NCBI RefSeq assembly: GCF_000300515.1
Contig: NZ_AMSI01000012.1
Coordinates: forward strand, 1-64,000
Reading direction: 5' to 3'
Length of the DNA: 64,000 bases
From: Nitratireductor indicus C115
GTDB taxonomy: Bacteria > Pseudomonadota > Alphaproteobacteria > Rhizobiales > Rhizobiaceae
The notes under the pieces were generated by a model that worked only from the letters and a program-made list of their open reading frames with translations, was not told the DNA's origin and did no database searches. Within the stretch, counting starts at the first letter, position 1. Every line of letters begins with the position of its first letter. Shown in pieces: positions 228 to 21,957 of the stretch. Position numbers and translations under genes: made by a program.

Positions 228-982
228 GACGGGCCTCCGTCATGGAATGGCAAGACGGCAGCGATGCGGTCACGGGCGCGGTCGGCCATCGTCGGGTCGA
301 TCTCGCAGCCGATGTAGCGACGGCCGGAGAGCCGGCAGGCTTCGCCGGCCGCACCGGATCCCGCGAACCAATCGCCGACAAGACCACCGGGCGGGCAGCT
401 CGTGCGGATGAGGATTTCGAGGAGGGCGGAAGGCTTCTCGGTCGGATGGATGGCGCGACCGTGGCAGTTGCGCACGTAGATGACCGAGCGCATCAGGCGT
501 GGGCCACCGTCATGGCTGACATAGTAGCCGGGATCGATCTTGCCGGTATGGGGTGGACGCTGCTTGCGCCGCACCGTGCGGGCGGTCGCGTCGGGCGTGG
601 TCTGCGGATCGTTGTATATCTCGCCCCAGGGCGTCTCGGCCGGATAGAACTGGACGGCCAGCTCATGCACGCGCTTGAAGCGGTCGGCATGAAAGCTGCT
701 CCCGTCCTGCTTCTCCCAGACGATCTCCTGGGCGAGCCGCAAGCCAGCGTCTGCGAAACGGCCGGCGCTCGCCATGAAGCTGCGCAGCGAGCCGAAGACC
801 CACATCGAGCCGGTTGGCGCAAGCGCCGCGCGTGCGAGCACTAGCCAGCCCTCGACCCGCCGGTCCCATGCGAGCGACGTGTCGCCGTAAGGGGGATCGG
901 CGAGGATCATGTCGAACGGACCGTGCGATGGCATGCGGTCCCGGCAGTCGCCGGACAGTATGATTTCGGGGAGCACAATCAT
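224..982 (-). CDS. Site-specific DNA methyltransferase (DPPY type)
   Basis: A 252-residue adenine or N4-cytosine DNA methyltransferase. The catalytic motif DPPY (ILADPPYGDTSLAWD) is near residue 33 and the S-adenosylmethionine-binding motif follows near the C-terminus (GDWFAGSGAAGEACRLSGRR), the beta-class order also found in CcrM-like orphan enzymes. No restriction endonuclease lies beside it, so it is more likely an orphan or protective methylase of the ICE than half of a restriction system. Start ATG 982 overlaps the parA stop (979) and its own stop overlaps the next gene, so translation is probably coupled along the operon. The target sequence cannot be read from the protein. Confidence 0.9.
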   Translation of the reverse strand: MIVLPEIILSGDCRDRMPSHGPFDMILADPPYGDTSLAWDRRVEGWLVLARAALAPTGSMWVFGSLRSFMASAGRFADAGLRLAQEIVWEKQDGSSFHADRFKRVHELAVQFYPAETPWGEIYNDPQTTPDATARTVRRKQRPPHTGKIDPGYYVSHDGGPRLMRSVIYVRNCHGRAIHPTEKPSALLEILIRTSCPPGGLVGDWFAGSGAAGEACRLSGRRYIGCEIDPTMADRARDRIAAVLPFHDGGPS

Positions 983-1632
983 GGCGCGGTCCTCCCGACG
1001 CCGAGGCGCGCGATCTCGGTGGCCAGCGCCGCGATCTCGCGCGTTGCCGGCGAATGGCGGTCGATGTCGGATGTGAGCCGTCCGGTCTGCGCGGCGTTGG
1101 CGAAGACGACGCGCTGGCCGATGGTGGTGGCGAGCACCGGAGGATCGTGGTCAGCCAGCGTCTCGGCCGTCTCGCGTGCGATGACGGTGCGCGCGCCGCA
1201 GCGATTGAGGACGAAGCGGGCGGCGAGCTGCGGCTGGTAGATGCGCGCTTCCGCCAGAAGCGCCAGCATCTCGGCCGAAGCCCATCCGTCGAGCGGAGAC
1301 GGCTGCACCGGGATCAGCACGAGGTCGGCGGCGAGCAGCGCCGAGCGCATCAGGCCGGCAACACGCGGCGGGCCGTCTATGACGACATGATCGACGCCGC
1401 CGGCGATTTCCGGCGCTTCGCGATGCAGCGTGTCGCGCGCCAGGCCGACGACGCCGAACAGGCGAGGCAGGCCCTCGCGCGCGCGTTGCTGCGACCAGTC
1501 GAGAGCCGATCCTTGCGGGTCGGCGTCGATCAGGGTGACGCGGCTTCCGCGTGACGCCATCTCGCCGGCGAGATGGAGTGCAAGCGTCGTCTTGCCGACA
1601 CCACCCTTCTGATTGAGGAAGGCGACGATCAT
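979..1632 (-). CDS. parA: ParA-family partition ATPase
   Basis: A 217-residue ParA/MinD-type ATPase. The deviant Walker A motif KGGVGKTTLALHLA begins at residue 9, a DADPQGSA switch follows near residue 38, and a hydrophobic Walker B-like strand (HVVIDGPPR) lies near residue 85. At this size it lacks the N-terminal helix-turn-helix of large plasmid ParA proteins. It probably segregates the excised circular form of the element. Its ATG (1632) overlaps the repA stop by four bases and its stop overlaps the methyltransferase start, which places it inside a translationally coupled operon. No classical short ParB partner is seen; the ribbon-helix-helix protein at the window edge is the likely partner. 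Confidence 0.93.
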   Translation of the reverse strand: MIVAFLNQKGGVGKTTLALHLAGEMASRGSRVTLIDADPQGSALDWSQQRAREGLPRLFGVVGLARDTLHREAPEIAGGVDHVVIDGPPRVAGLMRSALLAADLVLIPVQPSPLDGWASAEMLALLAEARIYQPQLAARFVLNRCGARTVIARETAETLADHDPPVLATTIGQRVVFANAAQTGRLTSDIDRHSPATREIAALATEIARLGVGRTAP

Positions 1633-2807
1633 CGGCGTTCTCCCAGCCGATCGAGGGGGAGCCGTGGGGCGACGGTTTCAGCGAAGCCGGTGCCGTCGGG
1701 CGCCGTTGACGGATTCGCAGCGGATGGCCCGGCCGGCGTGCCCTTCTTTCCGGCGATGCCGAGACTTCGGGCCGTGTCGCGAATGAGGTTTTCCACATCG
1801 CGCGCGCGCTCATAAAAGTTAGTATTATTGTTAGACTCTAAGTTAAGGCCGGGAATCGTCGTGTCGGGCCAAAGCGTTAGCTGGCGCCTTTGCGTGTGAT
1901 CTCCCGAAGGACTTGCGTGTGATCTCCCGAAGGGTCGTGCGTGTGATCTCCCGATTGCATCCACAGCACTATCCACAGGCCCGGCCGATGACGGCGCGGG
2001 CAGGATGCGCAATATTTCACGGCGACCGTCGCGCTCGATGCCCAGGTGATAGCCGGGCAGCGGCTGGCGCATGGCGATGCGGCGGATCTGGAGCGCAAAA
2101 TCGGAGACGCGCGCGAGGCTACCGGATTTCTCATGAAGGTGGTGGAGGTCGAAAACCCAGCCATGCCGCTGGCGGCCGGCATGCTTGCGGGCGACGCGAT
2201 AGAGCCAGCGTTCGATCCCGCCCTTCAGCCGGAAATAGGCCGGGTCGATTGCAAGGACGAGCGAGCGGTCGACGACGCCCCGATAGAACCAATCGGGCAG
2301 GACCAACTCCATGCCCTCGACCCGGCCGTCGAGGCGGGTGAGTTCCTCCCATTCGTTGACCCAGGAGAATTGATGCCGCCGCCAATGCTCGCCATTGCGA
2401 ATCGTCGTGCGGATCGAGGTCGATTGCAGCCGCGTCAGCGCGGCCTTGAGCAGCTTGTAGTCGCTGGCGCCGGTTTCGCGGCCGATAGCCGTCAGGAGGT
2501 GGTAGGGCGTGAAGCGCAGGAAGCGGGAGGTCGCAAGGCGGAGGTTCTCGGCCTCGACGATCTGACCCGCCGCCCAGATGAGGATATCCGCGTCCCAGAT
2601 CGTAGCCATGCCATGCTCGGGGACGGCAAAGACCTCGACGCGCACGGCGCCGGCTTCGTAGAGGATCGGCACGGTGCGGCGCGACTTAGACAGCGAGAAG
2701 AATGGGCGCTCCATGAGGTCGCGCTGGTCGCGCGGGCTGGCGTCGCCCGTCGCGATGACGAAAGGGTCGAGGCGCGCGCGCTCCGAGATAGGAAGGCGTC
2801 GGGACAT
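1629..2807 (-). CDS. repA: Replication initiator protein A (RPA family)
   Basis: A 392-residue protein of the alphaproteobacterial replication initiator A family. The family signature begins near residue 28 (RDLMERPFFSLSKSRRTVP) and continues through GMATIWDADILIW, PDWFYRGV and GGIERWLYRVARKHAG. The residues after about 270 are low in conservation and asparagine-rich, because that DNA also holds an AT-rich stretch and iterons (see the origin-like feature). The gene starts 12 bases after the excisionase gene and overlaps parA, so excision, replication and partition are probably expressed together. Presence of a replication gene fits an ICE that replicates as a circle after excision. The start at 2807 has no strong ribosome-binding site and may be translated by coupling. 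Confidence 0.88.
   Translation of the reverse strand: MSRRLPISERARLDPFVIATGDASPRDQRDLMERPFFSLSKSRRTVPILYEAGAVRVEVFAVPEHGMATIWDADILIWAAGQIVEAENLRLATSRFLRFTPYHLLTAIGRETGASDYKLLKAALTRLQSTSIRTTIRNGEHWRRHQFSWVNEWEELTRLDGRVEGMELVLPDWFYRGVVDRSLVLAIDPAYFRLKGGIERWLYRVARKHAGRQRHGWVFDLHHLHEKSGSLARVSDFALQIRRIAMRQPLPGYHLGIERDGRREILRILPAPSSAGPVDSAVDAIGRSHARPFGRSHASPSGDHTQRRQLTLWPDTTIPGLNLESNNNTNFYERARDVENLIRDTARSLGIAGKKGTPAGPSAANPSTAPDGTGFAETVAPRLPLDRLGERR
1812..1977. other. Origin-like block inside repA: AT-rich stretch, three iterons, two DnaA-box-like sites
   Basis: Three direct copies of the 17-mer TGCGTGTGATCTCCCGA lie at 1891-1907, 1914-1930 and 1938-1954, spaced 23 and 24 bp. Immediately beside them are two DnaA-box-like sites 12 bp apart: GCATCCACA (1957-1965) and CTATCCACA (1969-1977, one mismatch to TTATCCACA). 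On the other side, 1812-1846 is about 80 percent AT in a GC-rich neighbourhood, a plausible unwinding element. Iteron copies are read in two different frames by the overlapping repA gene, so the repeat is conserved as DNA and not as peptide. The arrangement matches iteron plasmid origins, here embedded in the 3' part of the initiator gene. Function is inferred. Confidence 0.7.
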
Positions 2808-2819
2808 GCCTGACAGCCC

Positions 2820-3101
2820 TCAACGCGCCGAGCGACTAGGCGCGGGATAGTGCTGCCTGTTGCCCGGCAGGGCGGGCAGCACGCTGCCGCGCGGATCGGA
2901 GGTCGAGGCGACGGTGCCACGCTCGGCCCAGGCTTCGAGTTCGTCGATCGCATAGACGACGCGGCCGCCAAGCTTGCGGAAAAGTGGTCCGGTGCCATAG
3001 GTCCGGTGCTTTTCCAGCGTGCGGGGCGAGAGGCCGAGAAAGTCTGCGGCTTCCCTCGTGCGCAGAAAGCGCGGCGGCAGGAGAGCGGGATTGGGGTACA
3101 T
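2820..3101 (-). CDS. rdfS: RdfS/AlpA-like excisionase (recombination directionality factor)
   Basis: A 93-residue protein with a winged helix-turn-helix of the AlpA/excisionase type: FLRTREAADFLGLSPRTLEKHR, then GPLFRKLGGRVVYAIDELEAWAE at residues 32-60. Such proteins bend attachment-site DNA and turn the integrase toward excision. The ATG at 3101 is chosen over upstream starts because GGAGG lies six bases before it. It is the first gene of an operon with repA, parA and a methyltransferase, and lies directly downstream of the FseA-like gene, the activator of rdfS in the Mesorhizobium symbiosis island. The protein fold is clear; the excisionase role is inferred from family and context. Confidence 0.82.
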   Translation of the reverse strand: MYPNPALLPPRFLRTREAADFLGLSPRTLEKHRTYGTGPLFRKLGGRVVYAIDELEAWAERGTVASTSDPRGSVLPALPGNRQHYPAPSRSAR

Positions 3102-3234
3102 GGATGCCTCCGTGGCTCTGGGGGATGCCGCTCGGGGGGAGCGGCGGTCAGGGGTCACGGTGGCGAAGAAGCGGGGCGCAGGGAGTGGGGGATTTCAGGG
3201 GGTATCGAATAACCCCACCCTGACCGGGGCGGGG
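3102..3234 (-). promoter_or_regulatory. Leader/promoter region of the rdfS-repA operon
   Basis: This 133-bp gap between the FseA-like gene and rdfS holds an inverted repeat CGGTCAGGG (3145-3153) / CCCTGACCG (3218-3226) with 64 bp between the arms, and inside it a smaller imperfect palindrome around 3198-3216 (GGGGGTATCGAATAACCCC). By analogy with ICEMlSymR7A this is where FseA would activate rdfS. No clear -35/-10 pair is visible. The repeats are seen directly; the regulatory role is inference. Confidence 0.45.
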
Positions 3235-4006
3235 TCAGAGGCGGCGGCGGAAACGCAGAAGCTTGAGATAACCGCCGGCGATCATGGCGGTGCCGTCACG
3301 GATGAGATCGCGTACGGTGTCGCGGAGTGGCGAGGATTGCCAGTGCTCCTTGGCGATGCGCTCGACGCCGAACAGGACCTGTGCGATCTCGCGCTGGCTG
3401 GCGCGATGCTGGCGGGCGTCGACAGCGCGCAGCATCGCCTTGAGCCGCCTTCGCTGTTGGGCGGTCATGCGCTGATCGGGCGGAACGCGGTAGCCGGCCA
3501 GGTGGCGCAGCAGGCGGTCGAGCGCGGCAATGCGATCGAGACCGTCGCGGTCAAGCGCGATAGCAACCGATATCGGATCGTCGGGCCGAATCGCGGGATC
3601 GGCGACCAGGTGCAGACCAGTACCGATCTCGCGCAGGAGGAGATGGAGTTCGTCTGGCGTGATCCTCTTCTCACCGGCAAGGAAGGCGCGCAGGGTGACG
3701 GCTCCCTCCCGGGCAGGCGCCAAGTTGCCCGCCAGCCGCAGAATAGCGGTGTCGGCAGTCTCACTCCAGAAGATCGGTTGGTCGCCTGCCGTCAGACGTG
3801 GCCGGGCCGCGAAATCGCAACCCCCAGCGGCTCTCCATCGTTTCGGGGAGCGGCTTGCCAAGGCGGTCTGCACGCCGCAGGTCACGATAGTCTTGCTGAT
3901 AGTCGCCGTTCCGCCGTAGACACTCCCAGGCGAGATGATCGACGCCTGCCTCGTCCATGAACCGATAAGCGGACTCTATCCGCCAGCGCGACGTGTCGGG
4001 TCTCAT
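3235..4006 (-). CDS. fseA: FseA-like excision activator made by +1 frameshift (DUF6499 + DUF2285)
   Basis: Two overlapping frames together encode one known architecture. Frame 1 starts at ATG 4006 (ribosome site GGGAGGAA) and encodes an 81-residue DUF6499-type protein (SRWRIESAYRFMDEAG, HLAWECLRRNGDYQQDY) that stops at 3761. Frame 2, open to 3235, encodes a DUF2285 domain (GYRVPPDQRMTAQQRRRL, HWQSSPLRDTVRDLIRDG). The conserved motif WGLRF ends frame 1 at residue 65, and the homologous continuation AARPRLTAGDQPIFW is in frame +1. At the junction the codon UUU is followed by C (3814-3811), so tRNA-Phe slipping from UUU to UUC joins them into a 256-residue protein. This is exactly the mechanism described for FseA of ICEMlSymR7A. 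Alternatives are a point frameshift or sequencing error. Confidence 0.82.
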
Positions 4007-4131: not shown

Positions 4132-4395
4132 TCAGTTCAGGCGGCCGAGGCGCAGAATCTTGTAGCCGTGTTCAGTCATCCAGTGGGCGCGGGCGAGGTG
4201 CGTATCGTGTATCCGGCGCGCGCGCTCGGGCTCGGTGTCGGGGTCGATGCCGAACAGGATTTCGACGGCTTCCTGCCAGTCAGCACCGTCCGCCTCGGCA
4301 TCGAGCAGACGACAATAGAGTTTCACATGCATGCGGTCGTAATCGGTGAGAAAATCGCCGTTGGGTGCTTCATCACGAAAGGATAGCGTCGCCAT
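4132..4395 (-). CDS. qseM: QseM-like antiactivator (single DUF2285 domain)
   Basis: An 87-residue protein consisting of a lone DUF2285 domain: TDYDRMHVKLYCRLLDAEADG, WQEAVEILFGIDPDTEPERA and the C-terminal HWMTEHGYKILRLG. In the Mesorhizobium symbiosis island the small DUF2285 protein QseM binds and blocks both the quorum-sensing activator TraR and FseA. Here the gene lies between a QseC-like repressor and the FseA-like gene, the expected partners. No traR or traI is visible in this window. Start ATG 4395 has a modest AAGGA site. Domain identity is well supported; antiactivator function rests on size and neighbourhood. Confidence 0.75.
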   Translation of the reverse strand: MATLSFRDEAPNGDFLTDYDRMHVKLYCRLLDAEADGADWQEAVEILFGIDPDTEPERARRIHDTHLARAHWMTEHGYKILRLGRLN

Positions 4396-4523: not shown

Positions 4524-4769
4524 TCAGCGACGCACAGTGTTCGGGACATCCAGCATCACTCCGATATGCCGGTCGGAATTGATGAAGACAATGCCTGCCG
4601 CTTCCAACGCCCTGCGAACCCTGTCGGCAGTACTCTCGAAGACGCGCTCCCCATTGACCGACTCCATGCGCTTGAGCGCGGTCAGCGATACGGTGGCCCT
4701 GTCTGCGAGCGTCTCCTGTGTCCAACCCAGCAATGCGCGCGCGGCCCGAGTTTGATGGGCGGTGATCAT
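4524..4769 (-). CDS. qseC: QseC-like XRE-family repressor
   Basis: An 81-residue helix-turn-helix protein: TRAARALLGWTQETLADRA then SLTALKRMESVNG is a standard XRE fold, and the rest (ALEAAGIVFI) is the short tail typical of small phage/ICE regulators. It starts at ATG 4769 behind an almost ideal ribosome site, GGAGGTGAT. In ICEMlSymR7A, QseC sets a bistable switch on the antiactivator qseM; gene size, fold and position beside a DUF2285 protein match. Here qseC and qseM are on the same strand. A perfect palindrome lies 39 bases upstream and probably mediates autoregulation. Confidence 0.75.
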   Translation of the reverse strand: MITAHQTRAARALLGWTQETLADRATVSLTALKRMESVNGERVFESTADRVRRALEAAGIVFINSDRHIGVMLDVPNTVRR

Positions 4770-6726: not shown

Positions 6727-7143
6727 TCAACGAGAGAAGACAGAGACACCAAGCGCGTTCAGATTGACCATAGCGGCGATACCGATGAACAGGCCGCCTG
6801 CTCCGCCGAGCAGATTGAGTACTACCGTCGAGTCGATTGCGTTCTTCGTGACGCCATGCATGAGGGCATATCCGGCGATGGCGGCAGGGATCGCGAACAT
6901 CGCGAGCGCAATCACGCGCAAGGTCGGGCTCTTCGCGAAGCCGAGAATGCCGATCACCAGCGCAATCGACAGCAAAGCGGCTCCTGCGCCCGCAAAGCCG
7001 CTCATGAATATTCCGGCGCCGCCGGCCCACGCATACTGCGCGGCCGAGATCGCAACCATGACGGGCAGCGCGTAGATCGCGAGATTGTAGGCAATGATGC
7101 AAAGCATGATCGTCAGCGAGATAGCAAGCAGGATCAGCGTCAT
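6727..7143 (-). CDS. Four-helix membrane protein of the ICE, function unknown
   Basis: A 138-residue hydrophobic protein beginning MTLILLAISLTIMLCIIAY. Four probable transmembrane segments lie near residues 3-24, 27-45, 52-72 and 78-100, with a last hydrophobic stretch around 110-130, so four or five helices. ATG 7143 is chosen because GGAGGT stands just before it. I do not recognise the family. It lies between DUF2493 and ssb genes and is separated from the former by a terminator hairpin. Possible roles (entry exclusion, mating) would be guesses. Confidence 0.7.
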   Translation of the reverse strand: MTLILLAISLTIMLCIIAYNLAIYALPVMVAISAAQYAWAGGAGIFMSGFAGAGAALLSIALVIGILGFAKSPTLRVIALAMFAIPAAIAGYALMHGVTKNAIDSTVVLNLLGGAGGLFIGIAAMVNLNALGVSVFSR

Positions 7144-7297
7144 GGAAACCTCCAGAAACGGTTGAGGGTCACGGCAGGCTGCCTGTGGATACGCTCCGCC
7201 TGCGACTATGCTACTGTTCCGGTTCTGCAAGGATGGTCCATAAGAGCCATTGACCTCTCCAGTAGTCAAGTATCGGCGACTGGAACAGCCGCCAGGT

Positions 7298-7317
7298 GGC
7301 GGCGCTTACGCGCCGCC
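7298..7317 (-). terminator. Hairpin overlapping DUF2493 stop codon
   Basis: In RNA sense GGCGGCGC-GUAA-GCGCCGCC: an 8-bp perfect stem whose loop contains the UAA stop codon of the DUF2493 gene. There is no following U tract, so it may stabilise the 3' end or pause polymerase. A similar hairpin with a GUAA/TTAC loop ends ssb. Confidence 0.55.
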
Positions 7318-8241
7318 GTCGAACTTCATGACGGGGATGCCGAGCTTGCGGGCCTTGTCGCCAAGGTTTTCCTGAATACCCGACCCCGGAAAAACGAGAA
7401 CGCCGACGGGCAGGACGTCGAGCAGCGCGTCGTTGCGCTTGAAGGGCGCGGACTTGCCATGCTTCGTCCAGTCAGGCTTGAAGGCGACCTGCGGCACCTT
7501 GCGATTGTCCGCCCATTTCGCGGCGATCAATTCGGCGCCCTTGGGCGAACCGCCATGCAGCAGCACCATGTCGGCGTGCTTTGCGCGAACCTGATCGAGC
7601 TTCGCCCAGATGAGGTTGTGGTCATTGTAGTCGAGACCGCCGGTCAGGGCGACCTTGGGACCGGGGGGCAGCATCACCTCGGTCTCGGCCCGGCGCTTCG
7701 CGGCCAGGAAGTCGCGGCTGTCGATCATCGCGGCGGTGAGATTGCGATAGTTGACCATTGAGCCGGTGCGAGGGCGCCAGGCGGTGCCGGTGTGGCGCTC
7801 GAACTGTTCGGCGGCGATGTCGCGGAAGAGTTCCATGCTGTTGCGCCGTTCGATGAATGTCTGCCCTTCTGCCGTCAGGCGTTCCAGCTCGACGGACTTC
7901 ACCTCGCTGCCGTCCTGTTCCCGCTGAAGACGGCGCTGCGCCAGCTCGTTATCATCCAGGTTGCGCTCTACCCGGCCGGTGGCGCGATGGAAGACATTGA
8001 CGGTCGACCAGAGCAATTCGTCAAGGTCGGGTTCGAGGCGGGTATCGCCGAGCGTGGCGATCAGGGCGTCGAAGATATCCGCGACGGCGCCGGCGACGGC
8101 GTTGCCTTCGGGAAGCGGCCTCGGGTCCGCTTCATCCTGAAACGGACGCCAGCCGTAAAGCTGGAGTTCGGTGAGGACATGATCGGTGGGGGAAGAGGTG
8201 TGAACCAGCCCGAAACCCGTATCGTCGTCTTCGTGCATCAT
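7306..8241 (-). CDS. DUF2493 (SLOG-like) protein
   Basis: A protein of about 311 residues. The C-terminal 140 residues are a DUF2493/YpsA-like SLOG domain (KVALTGGLDYNDHNLIWAKL, ADMVLLHGGSPKGAELIAAKW, ALLDVLPVGVLVFPGSGIQ), a Rossmann fold that binds nucleotide-type ligands. The N-terminal part (SPTDHVLTELQLYGWRPFQD) is shared by ICE homologues. Starts at 8241 and 8238 are both ATG behind AGGAAG; the open frame reaches back to the Toprim gene at 8565, but that extra part has no protein-like composition. Found widely in rhizobial ICEs; its function is unknown, perhaps nucleotide sensing or defence. Confidence 0.82.
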   Translation of the reverse strand: MMHEDDDTGFGLVHTSSPTDHVLTELQLYGWRPFQDEADPRPLPEGNAVAGAVADIFDALIATLGDTRLEPDLDELLWSTVNVFHRATGRVERNLDDNELAQRRLQREQDGSEVKSVELERLTAEGQTFIERRNSMELFRDIAAEQFERHTGTAWRPRTGSMVNYRNLTAAMIDSRDFLAAKRRAETEVMLPPGPKVALTGGLDYNDHNLIWAKLDQVRAKHADMVLLHGGSPKGAELIAAKWADNRKVPQVAFKPDWTKHGKSAPFKRNDALLDVLPVGVLVFPGSGIQENLGDKARKLGIPVMKFDGGA

Positions 8242-9611: not shown

Positions 9612-12600
9612 TACGCTGCCTCCCGTTCACCGATGCGCTGCACTGGCCAGCGGTCGAGCAGTTTGCCGAGAACCACAGGGCCATTGGCATCGACCGGCAC
9701 GAACATGCGCAGCTTCCACGAGATGATCTCATGAAACAGCCCGTAGGCCGTGAGGCGTTCGCGCATTGTGTCGGTGAAACCAGACAGTTCGATGCGGCTG
9801 ACGCCCATGACGCGGGAGCGGCGAAGCTGCAACCCCTCGGCAAGATCGAGGACGGTGCGGCCATCCATCAGTGCGGTGAAGGCGGCATCCGGCGTCAGCG
9901 AACTGGCGCCGGTCGTTACCGCGTTGGCCGCCCAGGCCGGCGAGACCTTGCGACCGATGATGCGCTCGCCTTCGTCGGTCTGGAGGCGATAGACGCGCGA
10001 GGATTCGTGCGGAAGCCGTTTCCAGATCGGCAGCAGCAAGCCGGTGACGATATGGATCGTGCTGTCGGAGAATTCCGGCACCTCCGCGATTTCTGCATTC
10101 CAGGCTGCTGAGAAGGAGTGCTCGTCGGCTTCAACCCAATGGGTCTCACCCATCATCCTGACTGGGATGTTGTGGCTGTCCATCGGCCGGATCAGCCGTA
10201 CGCGCCGCTCGATCTCGCCATCGTCCAGCATGATACTGGTGGTCGGGATCTGGACGGCGGCGCGGCCCGAACGCTCGTTGATGAGGAGCTTCGCTTGGCG
10301 GTCGTCGAGATAGCTAAGCGCATCGTCCAGCGTAACCGGACGATTGCGTTCGCGCTGCGTGATCGTCAGCAACCGGGTTTCCGCGCCGGTGCCCGGATGG
10401 GTATAGATGGTCTGGCGATCGGTGACGATGAAGCGTTCCGCCGTCAGCGTCTCCAGCCCGACATCGTAGCTGCCGCTGGCGATCGCGCCCTCGATCCTGG
10501 CGTTCAGCAACTGTTCGAAGGCGGCAAACAGGATGCCTTGAAGCTCGATGGTCAGCGCCAGCAGCCGGTTGAGAAAGGTGGTGATCGGCGGCAGATCGTC
10601 CTTGATGCCGGTCGAATCCATCAGCTTCAGGCCGGTGGCGGATTCGAAGCGGTCGAGCGAGCAGCCTTCGACCTTGCCGCGGACCAGAAGGAGATAGAGC
10701 TGGCGCAGCGCGTCGCGGGCATAATGGCTCTCCAGATTGTCCTCGGGTCGGAAGAGGCCCTGTCCGCCAGTCTGGCGCTGACCGCGCGTGATCGCGCCGA
10801 GTGTATCGAGACGTCGGGCGATGGTGGAGAGAAAACGCTTCTCGGCCTTGACGTCGGTCGCGATGGGCCGGAAGAGCGGCGGCTGCGCCTGGTTCGTGCG
10901 ATGCGTGCGACCGAGGCCCTGGATGGCGGCGTCGGCCTTCCAGCCCGGCTCGAGCAGGTAATGCACGCGCAGCCGCGTATTCCGCGCCGATAGCTCCGCG
11001 TGGTAACTGCGGCCGGTTCCGCCTGCATCCGAGAAGATCAGGATGCGTTTCTGGTCGTCCATGAACGCCTGCGTCTCGGCGAGATTGGCTGCTGCTGCGC
11101 GGTTCTCGACCACGAGCCGGTCGCCGATGTCACCGGTGCCCGGCTTGCGGATGATGCGGCGCGAGCGGCCAGTCACCTCCGCGACGAGATCGCACCCGAA
11201 ATACTGGACGATCTGGTCGAGCGCGCCCGGAACCGGCGGCAGGCTGGCCAGCTTTTCGATCAGTGCGGTGCGGCGTGCAACCGCCTCACGACTTTCGACG
11301 GGTTGGCCGTCGCGGAACACCGGACGCGAGGACAGATTACCCTCTGAGTCGGTGAAGGGCTCGTAGAGCTGCACCGGGAAGCTGGTTTCCAGATACGACA
11401 GGACGTACTCACGCGGAGTAATGTCCATGCGTACGTCGTTCCATTCCTCGGTCGGCAGGTCGGCCAGGCGGCGCTCCATCAGCGCCTCGCCGGTCGAGAC
11501 GATCTGGATCACGGCGGCATGGCCTGCCTCCAGATCGGCGTCGATGGACCGGATCAGCGTCGGGGTCTTCATGCTGGTGAGCAGATGGCCGAAGAACCGC
11601 TGCTTGGCCGATTCGAACGCGGAACGGGCGGCGGATTTCGCCTGCTTGTTCAGAGTGCCGGCACTGCCGGTGATGTTGGCCGCCTCCATCGCTGCATCGA
11701 GATTATTATGGATGACGGCGAATGCGCCGGCATAGGCGTCGTAGATGCGGGTCTGCTCGGGCGTCAGCGAGTGCTCGACCAGCTCGTATTCCACGCCGTC
11801 GAAGGAGAGCGAGCGGGCGGTATAAAGACCGAGCGCGCGAAGGTCGCGGGCCAGAACCTCCATCGCCGCAACACCGCCGGCCTCGATCGCCTCCACGAAC
11901 TCGGCCCGCGTGGAAAACGGAAAATCCTCGCCGCCCCACAGGCCGAGCCGCTGCGCATAGGCGAGGTTATGGACGGTCGTGGCGCCGGTTGCCGAGACAT
12001 AGACGACTCGGGCATTCGGCAAGGCGTGCTGAAGGCGCAGGCCGGCGCGGCCCTGTTGGGACGCAGCGACGTCCCCTCGTTCACCTTTGCCGCCGGCGGC
12101 GTTCTGCATCGCGTGCGCCTCGTCGAAAATGATCACTCCATCGAAGTCGGAGCCCAACCATTGGACGATCTGCTTGACCCTGGAAACCCTTTCTCCACGG
12201 TCGTCGGAACGTAGCGTGGCATAGGTTGTAAATAGGACGCCTTCCGGCAGCGTGACCGGCTTGCCCTGCGGGAATCGCGACAGCGGCGTGACCAGCAGAC
12301 GCTCCATCCCGAGCGCCGACCAGTCGCGTTGGGCGTCCTCCAGGAGCTTGTCGGACTTGGAGATCCAGATCGCCTTGCGGCGGCCCTGGAGCCAGTTGTC
12401 GAGAATGATCGCGGCCGATTGCCTGCCCTTGCCGACGCCGGTGCCATCGCCGATGAAGAAGCCACGCCGGAAACGCACGGCATTCTTCGCATCTTCGCGT
12501 GCGGCGGAGACGAGATCGAAGGTCTCGTCCACCGTCCACGAACCGGCGAGATAATCGGCATGGGCCTCGCCGGCGTAGATTACGGTCTCCAACTGCGCAT

Positions 12601-14144: not shown

Positions 14145-14420
14145 ATGGCCAACGCGGATAAGCTCACCACCACCGTCTCCACCAAGGGACAGGTCATCCT
14201 TCCCAGCGCCATCCGCCAGCGGCGGGAATGGGGGGCAGGAACGCGGCTCGTGGTCGAGGAGACGCCGGAGGGCGTGCTGCTGAAGCCAGTCCCAGCCTTC
14301 GCCGAGACGCGACCGGAAGACGTGTTCGGCGTGCTGGCCTGGAAGGGCAAGCCAAAGACGCTTGAGGAGATGGATGCCGGCGTGCTGGCCGAGGCAAAGC
14401 GCCGCCATGCTCGCGATTGA
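14145..14420 (+). CDS. vapB: VapB-type AbrB antitoxin
   Basis: A 91-residue AbrB/SpoVT swapped-hairpin antitoxin: TTTVSTKGQVILPSAIRQRR is the DNA-binding beta-hairpin motif, followed by RLVVEETPEGVLLKPV. The tail should wrap the toxin. It overlaps the vapC start by 14 bases, so the two are co-translated. It runs opposite to almost all element genes and is divergent from the helicase gene. Two direct TCTTACG copies 11 bp apart (14108-14125) lie just upstream and could be its operator, since VapBC pairs repress themselves. Confidence 0.9.
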   Translation: MANADKLTTTVSTKGQVILPSAIRQRREWGAGTRLVVEETPEGVLLKPVPAFAETRPEDVFGVLAWKGKPKTLEEMDAGVLAEAKRRHARD

Positions 14421-14796
14421 TACCAATCTGGTCGTCCGCTACCTGACCGGTGACCATCCGAAACAATCGCCGCGCGCCCGCGACCTGATCGACAGGCAGC
14501 CGGTCTTTGCCGGCGTCACGGTGATCCTCGAAACCGAATGGGTGCTGCGCAGCACCTATGAATATCGCCCGGCAGAAATCGCCCACGCGCTACGGGTTTT
14601 CGCCGGCCTGCCGACCGTGACGGTCGAGGACGGTGCAATCGTCGCCGCCGCCCTCGGCCTTGCCGAGACGGGAATGGATTTCGCGGATGCGCTGCATCTC
14701 GGCCGCGCGGCGCATTGCGAGGGTTTCGCGAGCTTCGACCGCAAGCTGGTCAAGGCGGCGAAGGCCGCCGGATATGCGGGCATTCGCGAACCCTGA
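14407..14796 (+). CDS. vapC: VapC PIN-domain ribonuclease toxin
   Basis: A 129-residue PIN-domain protein. The acidic active site is visible as D5 in LAIDTNLVVRYLTGD, E43 in ILETEWVLR, and aspartates in MDFADALHLG and FASFDRKLV. VapC toxins cut tRNA or rRNA when the labile antitoxin is lost, so the pair can act to keep the ICE in the population. ATG 14407 lies inside the end of vapB (stop 14420). It ends six bases before the convergent 15447-14803 gene stop, with no clear terminator between. Confidence 0.9.
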   Translation: MLAIDTNLVVRYLTGDHPKQSPRARDLIDRQPVFAGVTVILETEWVLRSTYEYRPAEIAHALRVFAGLPTVTVEDGAIVAAALGLAETGMDFADALHLGRAAHCEGFASFDRKLVKAAKAAGYAGIREP

Positions 14797-21880: not shown

Positions 21881-21957
21881 TGGCGCGCCCGAAAGGATTC
21901 GAACCTCTGACCCCCAGATTCGTAGTCTGGTGCTCTATCCAGCTGAGCTACGGGCGC
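21881..21957 (-). tRNA. tRNA-Arg (ACG)
   Basis: Minus strand, 77 nt including an encoded CCA. Acceptor GCGCCCG (21957-21951) pairs with CGGGCGC (21891-21885), discriminator G. Anticodon stem CCAGA/TCTGG encloses CTACGAA, anticodon ACG; the T loop is TTCGAAT. The 3' end faces the ICE, the usual position for site-specific integration into a tRNA gene. Confidence 0.97.

Follow-up and report, generated by a model that had tools for sequence, protein, structure and literature searches.

The window, that is the whole 64,000-nucleotide stretch of DNA that was analysed, carries on its minus strand two overlapping reading frames whose domains, position and company identify them, on sequence grounds, as belonging to the FseA family already described in print, so that the kind of gene described here is largely known. 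The first is a 0-frame ORF of 81 aa (3761..4006, minus strand), the Msi172-like half of FseA, whose DUF6499 or Trans_reg_dom domain (PF20109, E 3.7e-20) spans residues 7-66 and thereby ends one residue beyond the putative slip residue Phe65; the frame reads ...RWGLRFRGPATSDGRRPTDLLE and then meets a TGA stop at 3763-3761. The second (3235..3810, minus strand) is the Msi171-like DUF2285 half, predicted to be read after the slip: following the TTT in the +1 frame, the translation runs F-AARPRL and stays open to 3235, with matches to PF10074, the RovC_DNA-bd/DUF2285 family (E 9.1e-35), and to RovC (PDB 6xz5). The joined +1 product would be 256 aa long and matches RovC with a whole-sequence E of 2.1e-6, chiefly through its C-terminal stretch, the N-terminal match being weak, while its N-terminal half contains AWECLRRN, which fits the AWEFLRRN-like motif of the FseA family. 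The frames meet at WGLR-UUU-C (3814-3811), where the minus strand reads CGC TGG GGG TTG CGA TTT C GCG GCC CGG CCA CGT CTG, the TTT occupying 3814-3812 and the C 3811. The preliminary description had placed the two domains in overlapping frames, with UUU-C at these coordinates and AARPRL in the +1 frame; the ORFs and the two Pfam matches bear out the first of these claims, and the others are correct in letters, place and frame.

The surrounding mobile element

Just upstream of fseA lies a gene for a QseM-like antiactivator of 87 aa (4132..4395, minus strand), a lone DUF2285-type domain assigned by its phmmer match to QseM (PDB 7uqt, E 5.9e-19) and giving no Pfam match at 0.001. It is preceded by an XRE-type HTH protein gene (4524..4769, minus strand; HTH_3 and HTH_31, both under the curated cut-off) in the place of QseC. 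The first gene after fseA encodes an RdfS-like recombination directionality factor of 93 aa (2820..3101, minus strand; phmmer to RdfS, PDB 8dgl, E 5.4e-11; HTH_17), followed on the same strand by an RPA replication initiator gene (1629..2807; PF10134, E 7.4e-81) and a gene for a ParA-like partition ATPase (979..1632; PF13614, E 1.4e-21, and CbiA). Genes for a DNA methylase, an SSB, a strawberry-notch-type helicase and an ArdC-like protein also lie within 1-21880, and a PIN-domain gene (14362-14796; PF01850, E 3.1e-7) is found within the element on the opposite strand. No traR/traI-like gene was recognised beside the window fseA, PF00765 being silent in the genome and in the controls alike. The same neighbours recur among relatives: in the 129 distinct +1 loci flanked by 900 nt or more on either side, an RdfS-like gene follows in 101 and an RPA gene in 90, whilst a QseM-like gene precedes in 99 and an XRE gene in 70, with all four present in 62 and none in 18.

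The integration site is a tRNA-Arg(ACG) gene (21881..21957, minus strand), the sole Rfam match at the gathering threshold within 1-23000. Its last 46 bp (21881-21926) form an att repeat of which the genome has one further copy, on contig C22, adjoining an integrase-like ORF of 487 aa (L264, 8315-9778) with an integrase arm-type domain (Arm-DNA-bind_3, PF13356, E 9.5e-9), an ORF that the PF00589 search did not list. A second stretch of 35 bp, 97% identical, is common to the two places, and it is probable that the two contigs represent the two ends of one element. By Pfam match, the genes farther in on C22 include one for a multicopper oxidase (1377-2846) and one for an rve-type transposase (6910-7764), whilst that of a large serine recombinase (9810-11444) overlaps the repeat and extends beyond it. 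Matches to a TrbE-like ATPase were found on contigs C38, C15, C26 and C7 and none on that of the window, the element being split over contigs. The genome has three fseA-type genes, on C12 (that of the window), C15 and C7, each with TTT followed by C or T and with DUF2285 in the +1 frame. Each of those on C15 and C7 has a TrbE-like ATPase match at a distance of about 12-14 kb, and there are perhaps three related elements in this one host.

A nearly identical copy of the element is present in another genus of the same family (genome G502). Positions 775-21957 of the window (21,183 bases, about 21.2 kb) match G502 contig C30 (L270, L271) in two overlapping stretches, one of 19,855 bases with 2 mismatches and one of 1,829 bases from 20129 with none, and all 772 bases of the fseA gene are identical. 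The identity ends with the tRNA-Arg gene, at 21957; past it, only diverged matches to G502 are found (65-81%), at 65% over the adjoining 1,375 bases and at up to 81% over 839 bases farther away. That the flanks differ beyond tRNA-Arg argues against contamination and favours a recent transfer of the element into the same tRNA gene.

The leader of the rdfS-like gene (3185..3222) is rich in inverted repeats and is a candidate FseA box, in which the best hexamer pair matches at 5/6 positions across a 15-bp spacer; a clean box was not established in the window. In a related copy (L002) the corresponding leader contains a perfect GGGGAA-N16-TTCCCC. A scan of 101 rdfS-like leaders, from which 27 were dropped and 74 with the required anchor and length were kept, found perfect inverted hexamers at the published spacing of 15/16 bp in 17 leaders, against 1.6 expected from mononucleotide shuffles. 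By spacing, perfect pairs in these 74 leaders numbered 4 at 15 bp, 13 at 16, 15 at 17 and 28 at 18, and the even spacings share one axis should the arms exceed six. The matching half-sites vary (GGCGAA/TTCGCC in 7, TGGGAT/ATCCCA in 4, TGCGAA/TTCGCA in 3 and GGGGAA/TTCCCC in 1), which may reflect FseA lineages that differ in DNA specificity.

Conservation of the junction

Relatives were gathered as 261 loci, drawn from the best 80 of 468 relatives in a contig scan of named organisms, one locus from viral contigs, Pfam searches of 385 genomes of the class, 199 of the family and 398 of the phylum together with the stretches around those matches, and the three loci of this genome. HMMs built from 112 seeds yielded 259 DUF6499 rows, which include the same place more than once (for example L001 with L030, and L002 with L010). 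DUF2285 followed in the +1 frame in 211 rows, was fused in frame in 32, lay in -1/+2 in 2 and was missing in 14; the ratio of 211 to 32 does not estimate prevalence, given that the sample was seeded with the FseA family and that the contig scan contributed its best 80 of 468. Phage sequences contribute little, the 256-aa product having no match among phage records at E 1e-5 and viral contigs supplying one weak relative (L114).

At the junction, 209 of the 211 +1 rows have TTT-C or TTT-T, the exceptions being L011 (TGT-C) and L060 (CTT-C). The WGxxF motif is present in 204 of these rows, and five of the seven that do not have it (L022, L069, L221, L225 and L253) retain TTT-C or TTT-T. The preliminary description had asked whether UUU-C is invariant: TTT is, in 204/204 of the rows with the motif, whereas the base after it is C in 184 and T in 20, and never A or G. 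Reduced to 183 contexts, distinct over 100 nt yet related and including one from a -1/+2 row (L149) whose junction is also TTT-C, the codon is TTT in 183/183, and in all 34 clusters at 50% identity, whereas TTT accounts for 28% of the 942 Phe codons that these genes use in their DUF2285 part. The Phe codon of the WEFLRR motif, by comparison, is TTC in 34 and TTT in 11 of the +1 rows. Because it is so well kept in relatives, the slip site is almost certainly real, as judged from sequence.

Homologues fused in frame, which the preliminary description had held would refute a programmed shift if they had no slip site, do exist (32 of 259 rows), yet they are mostly distant, 31 of the 32 scoring below 50 bits with the DUF6499 HMM as against 33 of the 211 +1 rows. 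Aligned by eye, the fused L241 (WGLRF-GADP) and a WGLRLLEDP group match the +1 product without gaps, and L057 carries one extra residue. The last, from Asticcacaulis endophyticus, is a single-frame relative (WGLLSPPIDP) whose DUF6499 HMM score is 75 bits and in which the GGG is retained; it may be an in-frame descendant of a frameshifted form.

Comparison of substitution rates with L034, L035 and L002 gave dN/dS values of 0.25, 0.23 and 0.12 for the DUF6499 half in the 0 frame and of 0.27, 0.21 and 0.21 for the DUF2285 half in the +1 frame, whilst the DNA of the latter, read after the slip in the 0 frame, gave 1.9-3.3. Since dN/dS is low in the 0 frame before the site and in the +1 frame after it, the coding frame changes at the site.

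Nucleotides preceding the slip codon

The 16 positions at the junction, TGG GGG TTG CGA TTT C (3811..3826, minus strand), form a candidate frameshift cassette that is also the consensus of the 183 contexts. The part before UUU (UGG-GGG-UUG-CGA-UUU-C) is constrained beyond the needs of the protein, and this is the present report's own addition. The Gly codon of WG is GGG in 130/183 contexts, in contrast to 11.6% of 2442 Gly codons elsewhere in the same genes and 5/27 in in-frame homologues. A mere codon-pair habit after Trp was considered and rejected: GGG makes up 26% of 69 W-G pairs in neighbouring ORFs (chosen greedily by length, and not curated genes), which exceeds 11.6% but is far under the 71% at the junction, although the control for the W-G-L context is thin, with 7 of the 69 pairs being W-G-L and 3 of these GGG. 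Immediately before UUU, CGA is found in 109 contexts, or 109/121 of the Arg codons there, versus 10% of 4294 elsewhere. With contexts clustered at 50% identity, most members use GGG in 26/34 clusters, and most of the Arg codons are CGA in 17/19.

The GGGGGT at 3820..3825 (minus strand) is a candidate internal Shine-Dalgarno-like stimulator, its GGGGG run being separated by 6 nt from the slip codon and by 3 nt from CGA. The best anti-Shine-Dalgarno pairing averages -7.87 kcal/mol across the contexts, in comparison with -5.48 for synonymous resampling (set means -5.71 to -5.29) and -5.83 for 26 in-frame homologues (Mann-Whitney p 4e-8, with relatedness ignored); of the 32 fused rows, 27 have a usable W/F-G-L site and 26 entered this pairing test. 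A downstream stem-loop was rejected as stimulator, since 70-nt regions from a random 60 of the 183 contexts gave a mean MFE z of 0.02 against mononucleotide shuffles.

As a search pattern of 18 nt, TGGGGGYTDCGATTTYSC, the cassette matches three times in the 5-Mb genome, each time at one of its fseA genes. Across 199 genomes of the order there are 17 matches in 13 genomes, all of them fseA junctions with DUF2285 in the +1 frame and 13 of the 17 new to the earlier locus set, and the reversed control gave 0 in the rows listed. A 17-nt form gave 17 matches in 14 of 398 phylum genomes, largely genomes already used for locus collection and hence not an independent sample, and 11/17 were fseA (11/13 with the leading T); the 18-nt form gave 8 matches in viral contigs, 0/8 being fseA. 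The six phylum matches outside fseA and the eight viral ones were judged on short translations. Because all 17 matches in the order are fseA, as against 11/17 in the phylum and 0/8 in viral contigs, the signal is specific at genome scale and not exclusive.

Discussion

The FseA reading of the preliminary description is supported, at the level of sequence, by the domains, the relation of their frames and the conservation of UUU-Y, and it fits the selection on both halves with a switch of coding frame at the site, the QseM homologue upstream, the RdfS homologue downstream and an element bounded by a tRNA-Arg repeat. According to passages of PMC10359603, a programmed +1 frameshift of low frequency joins msi172 and msi171 to give FseA, QseM binds its DUF6499 part, and among 4709 homologues collected about 61% consist of two ORFs split by a conserved +1 site; the msi172-msi171 frameshift is also stated in PMC5882170, PMC11963761 and PMC5009743. 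As in FseA of ICEMlSymR7A (Msi172-Msi171, Mesorhizobium japonicum R7A), DUF6499 and DUF2285 lie here in overlapping +1 frames, an RdfS homologue is present and a qseM gene adjoins, the R7A qseM-qseC pair being placed by PMC5882170 next to traI2-msi172-msi171. In R7A, the same source has rdfS leading an operon of its own together with traF and msi107; here, by contrast, the rdfS-like gene comes immediately after fseA and ahead of RPA and ParA, in an element at tRNA-Arg. RovC (PDB 6xz5) is a related protein whose domain Pfam names as that of a T6SS transcription factor. RovC is encoded in a single reading frame.

Given the codon conservation and the analogy with ICEMlSymR7A, it is very probable that a low-yield +1 slip on UUU-C makes FseA and brakes excision at the level of translation. 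Most ribosomes would translate the 81-aa DUF6499 ORF and stop at 3763, whilst a minority would shift at 3814-3811 as tRNA-Phe re-pairs from UUU, one base on, to UUC, and go on to make the 256-aa FseA. UUU and UUC are both read by one tRNA-Phe, and a UUU followed by a pyrimidine suits a single tRNA-Phe re-pairing one base on. By the same analogy, the DUF2285 half of FseA would act upstream of the adjacent rdfS-like gene, presumably at the candidate FseA box, and so turn excision on, and the QseM homologue would bind the DUF6499 part and block FseA. The step would be a translational brake on excision because the yield of the shift, itself presumed along with the shift, is taken to be low. The conserved GGGGGU and CGA may raise the shift rate, the former by pairing with 16S rRNA and the latter through the weak pairing of the upstream tRNA.

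The alternative that survives best places the event one codon earlier and resembles that of RF2: with CGA in the P site and strain from a GGGGG run 3 nt away, the first U would be skipped and tRNA-Phe would read UUC, to give the same protein. The distance from GGGGG to CGA equals the spacing reported in PMC12421855 between the SD-like sequence and CTTT of prfB, CGA makes up 109/121 of the Arg codons at this position, and a passage of PMC5009743 counts CGA among the few codons able to stand in for GCG at the Ty3 shift site, which involves minimal re-pairing. One odd copy (L060, from a Telmatospirillum MAG) reads GGGGG-UUA-CUU-C, in the geometry of prfB; it is a single MAG and the reading may be an error. 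Set against this, the codon before UUU varies, with 22 codons in the 183 contexts, and a skip would leave the first U free, yet it is kept in 210/211 rows, including L011 with its TGT and excepting the CTT of L060. Because this first U is kept whilst the preceding codon varies, a slip on UUU itself is preferred and is the likely route, a skip after CGA being unlikely though not negligible; UUU_Ynn is, moreover, called especially prone to +1 shifts in bacteria in a review (PMC5009743). The peptide across F65-A66 is identical in both cases, and mass spectrometry would therefore prove the +1 product and not the codon at which the slip takes place.

There is, further, a slim chance that the halves are two separate proteins, the DUF2285 part having its own start and the two forming a complex, as has been claimed for rihF1b/rihF1a of Azorhizobium. 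The A. caulinodans homologues are said in PMC9601964 to start and stop at codons of their own, with no programmed frameshift, although the same source reports that neither half alone restored transfer. The window has GTG/TTG codons in its +1 frame upstream of the slip (3885, 3873 and 3861), and in 10/182 contexts a +1-frame start codon lies at most 12 nt from it, so that the start codons here would allow separate initiation. In 84/182 contexts, on the other hand, no ATG, GTG or TTG occurs in the +1 frame between its opening and the slip, the next one lying a median of 67 nt past it; the TTT in 183/183 is left unexplained; and a congener, Azorhizobium oxalatiphilum (L108, and not ORS571 itself), has GGG-TTG-CGA-TTT-C. 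Decay, or a single-base insertion or deletion introduced in assembly, is very unlikely, its chance being close to nil: the sequence is a single draft assembly of 73 contigs and the window begins at a contig end, but the same site is found in the two other copies of the genome, in the identical copy of the other genus and in 209/211 rows, and the claim of the preliminary description that both frames are intact, which argued against decay, is upheld by dN/dS values of 0.12-0.27 in the two halves, far under 1. Transcriptional slippage was rejected, a U run of 3-4 being judged too short.

The preferred slip on UUU and the skip after CGA can be brought together in a joint model, in which the strain would arise with CGA in the P site and be released on entry of tRNA-Phe. 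The cassette would then be an RF2-like internal Shine-Dalgarno sequence combined with a weak upstream codon. Stated in full, it is tentatively suggested, at somewhat short of even chances, that the composite UGGGGGUUGCGAUUUY drives the shift: strain would peak with CGA, read by inosine and weakly held, in the P site and be released as tRNA-Phe enters and re-pairs from UUU to UUY, a stop codon or downstream structure playing no part. No test of such a model was found in the literature passages searched, the PNAS 2015 paper on the site lying outside that search.

Two known sites invite comparison. In prfB, too, as described in PMC12421855, a GGGGG SD-like run shortly precedes a pyrimidine slip tetranucleotide at which the shift is +1; the fseA site differs in having no stop codon, in slipping on UUU and not CUU, in the distance of the run from the slip codon (6 nt and not 3) and in a product that is an ICE regulator. 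From its sequence, the fseA site may work like a prfB-type site but is not one. The UCC_UUU_CGU of influenza PA-X is likewise a UUU-C site with a +1 shift, and its efficiency depends on the codon before UUU (PMC5009743), although the gene is unrelated. A further point concerns the machinery of the two. The PA-X shift takes place on eukaryotic ribosomes, where SD pairing is absent.

The time at which certain proteobacterial mobile elements leave the chromosome is set by FseA-type switches, whose genes, according to PMC10359603, are often misannotated; among the plasmid rows listed here, for which the gene table is incomplete, the match was covered by two proteins, by a single one or by none. 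The strict cassette is of use in recognising such genes at the DNA level, with some known false positives, and its natural variants form a set with which to ask on what the efficiency of a stop-independent +1 shift depends. What is new, in a system of a known kind, is a possible helper sequence for ribosome pairing directly ahead of the slip. The interest of the locus lies in this cassette and in the recently shared element: an element with an intact site is common to two genera at 99.99% identity, and the frameshifted form has therefore moved recently.
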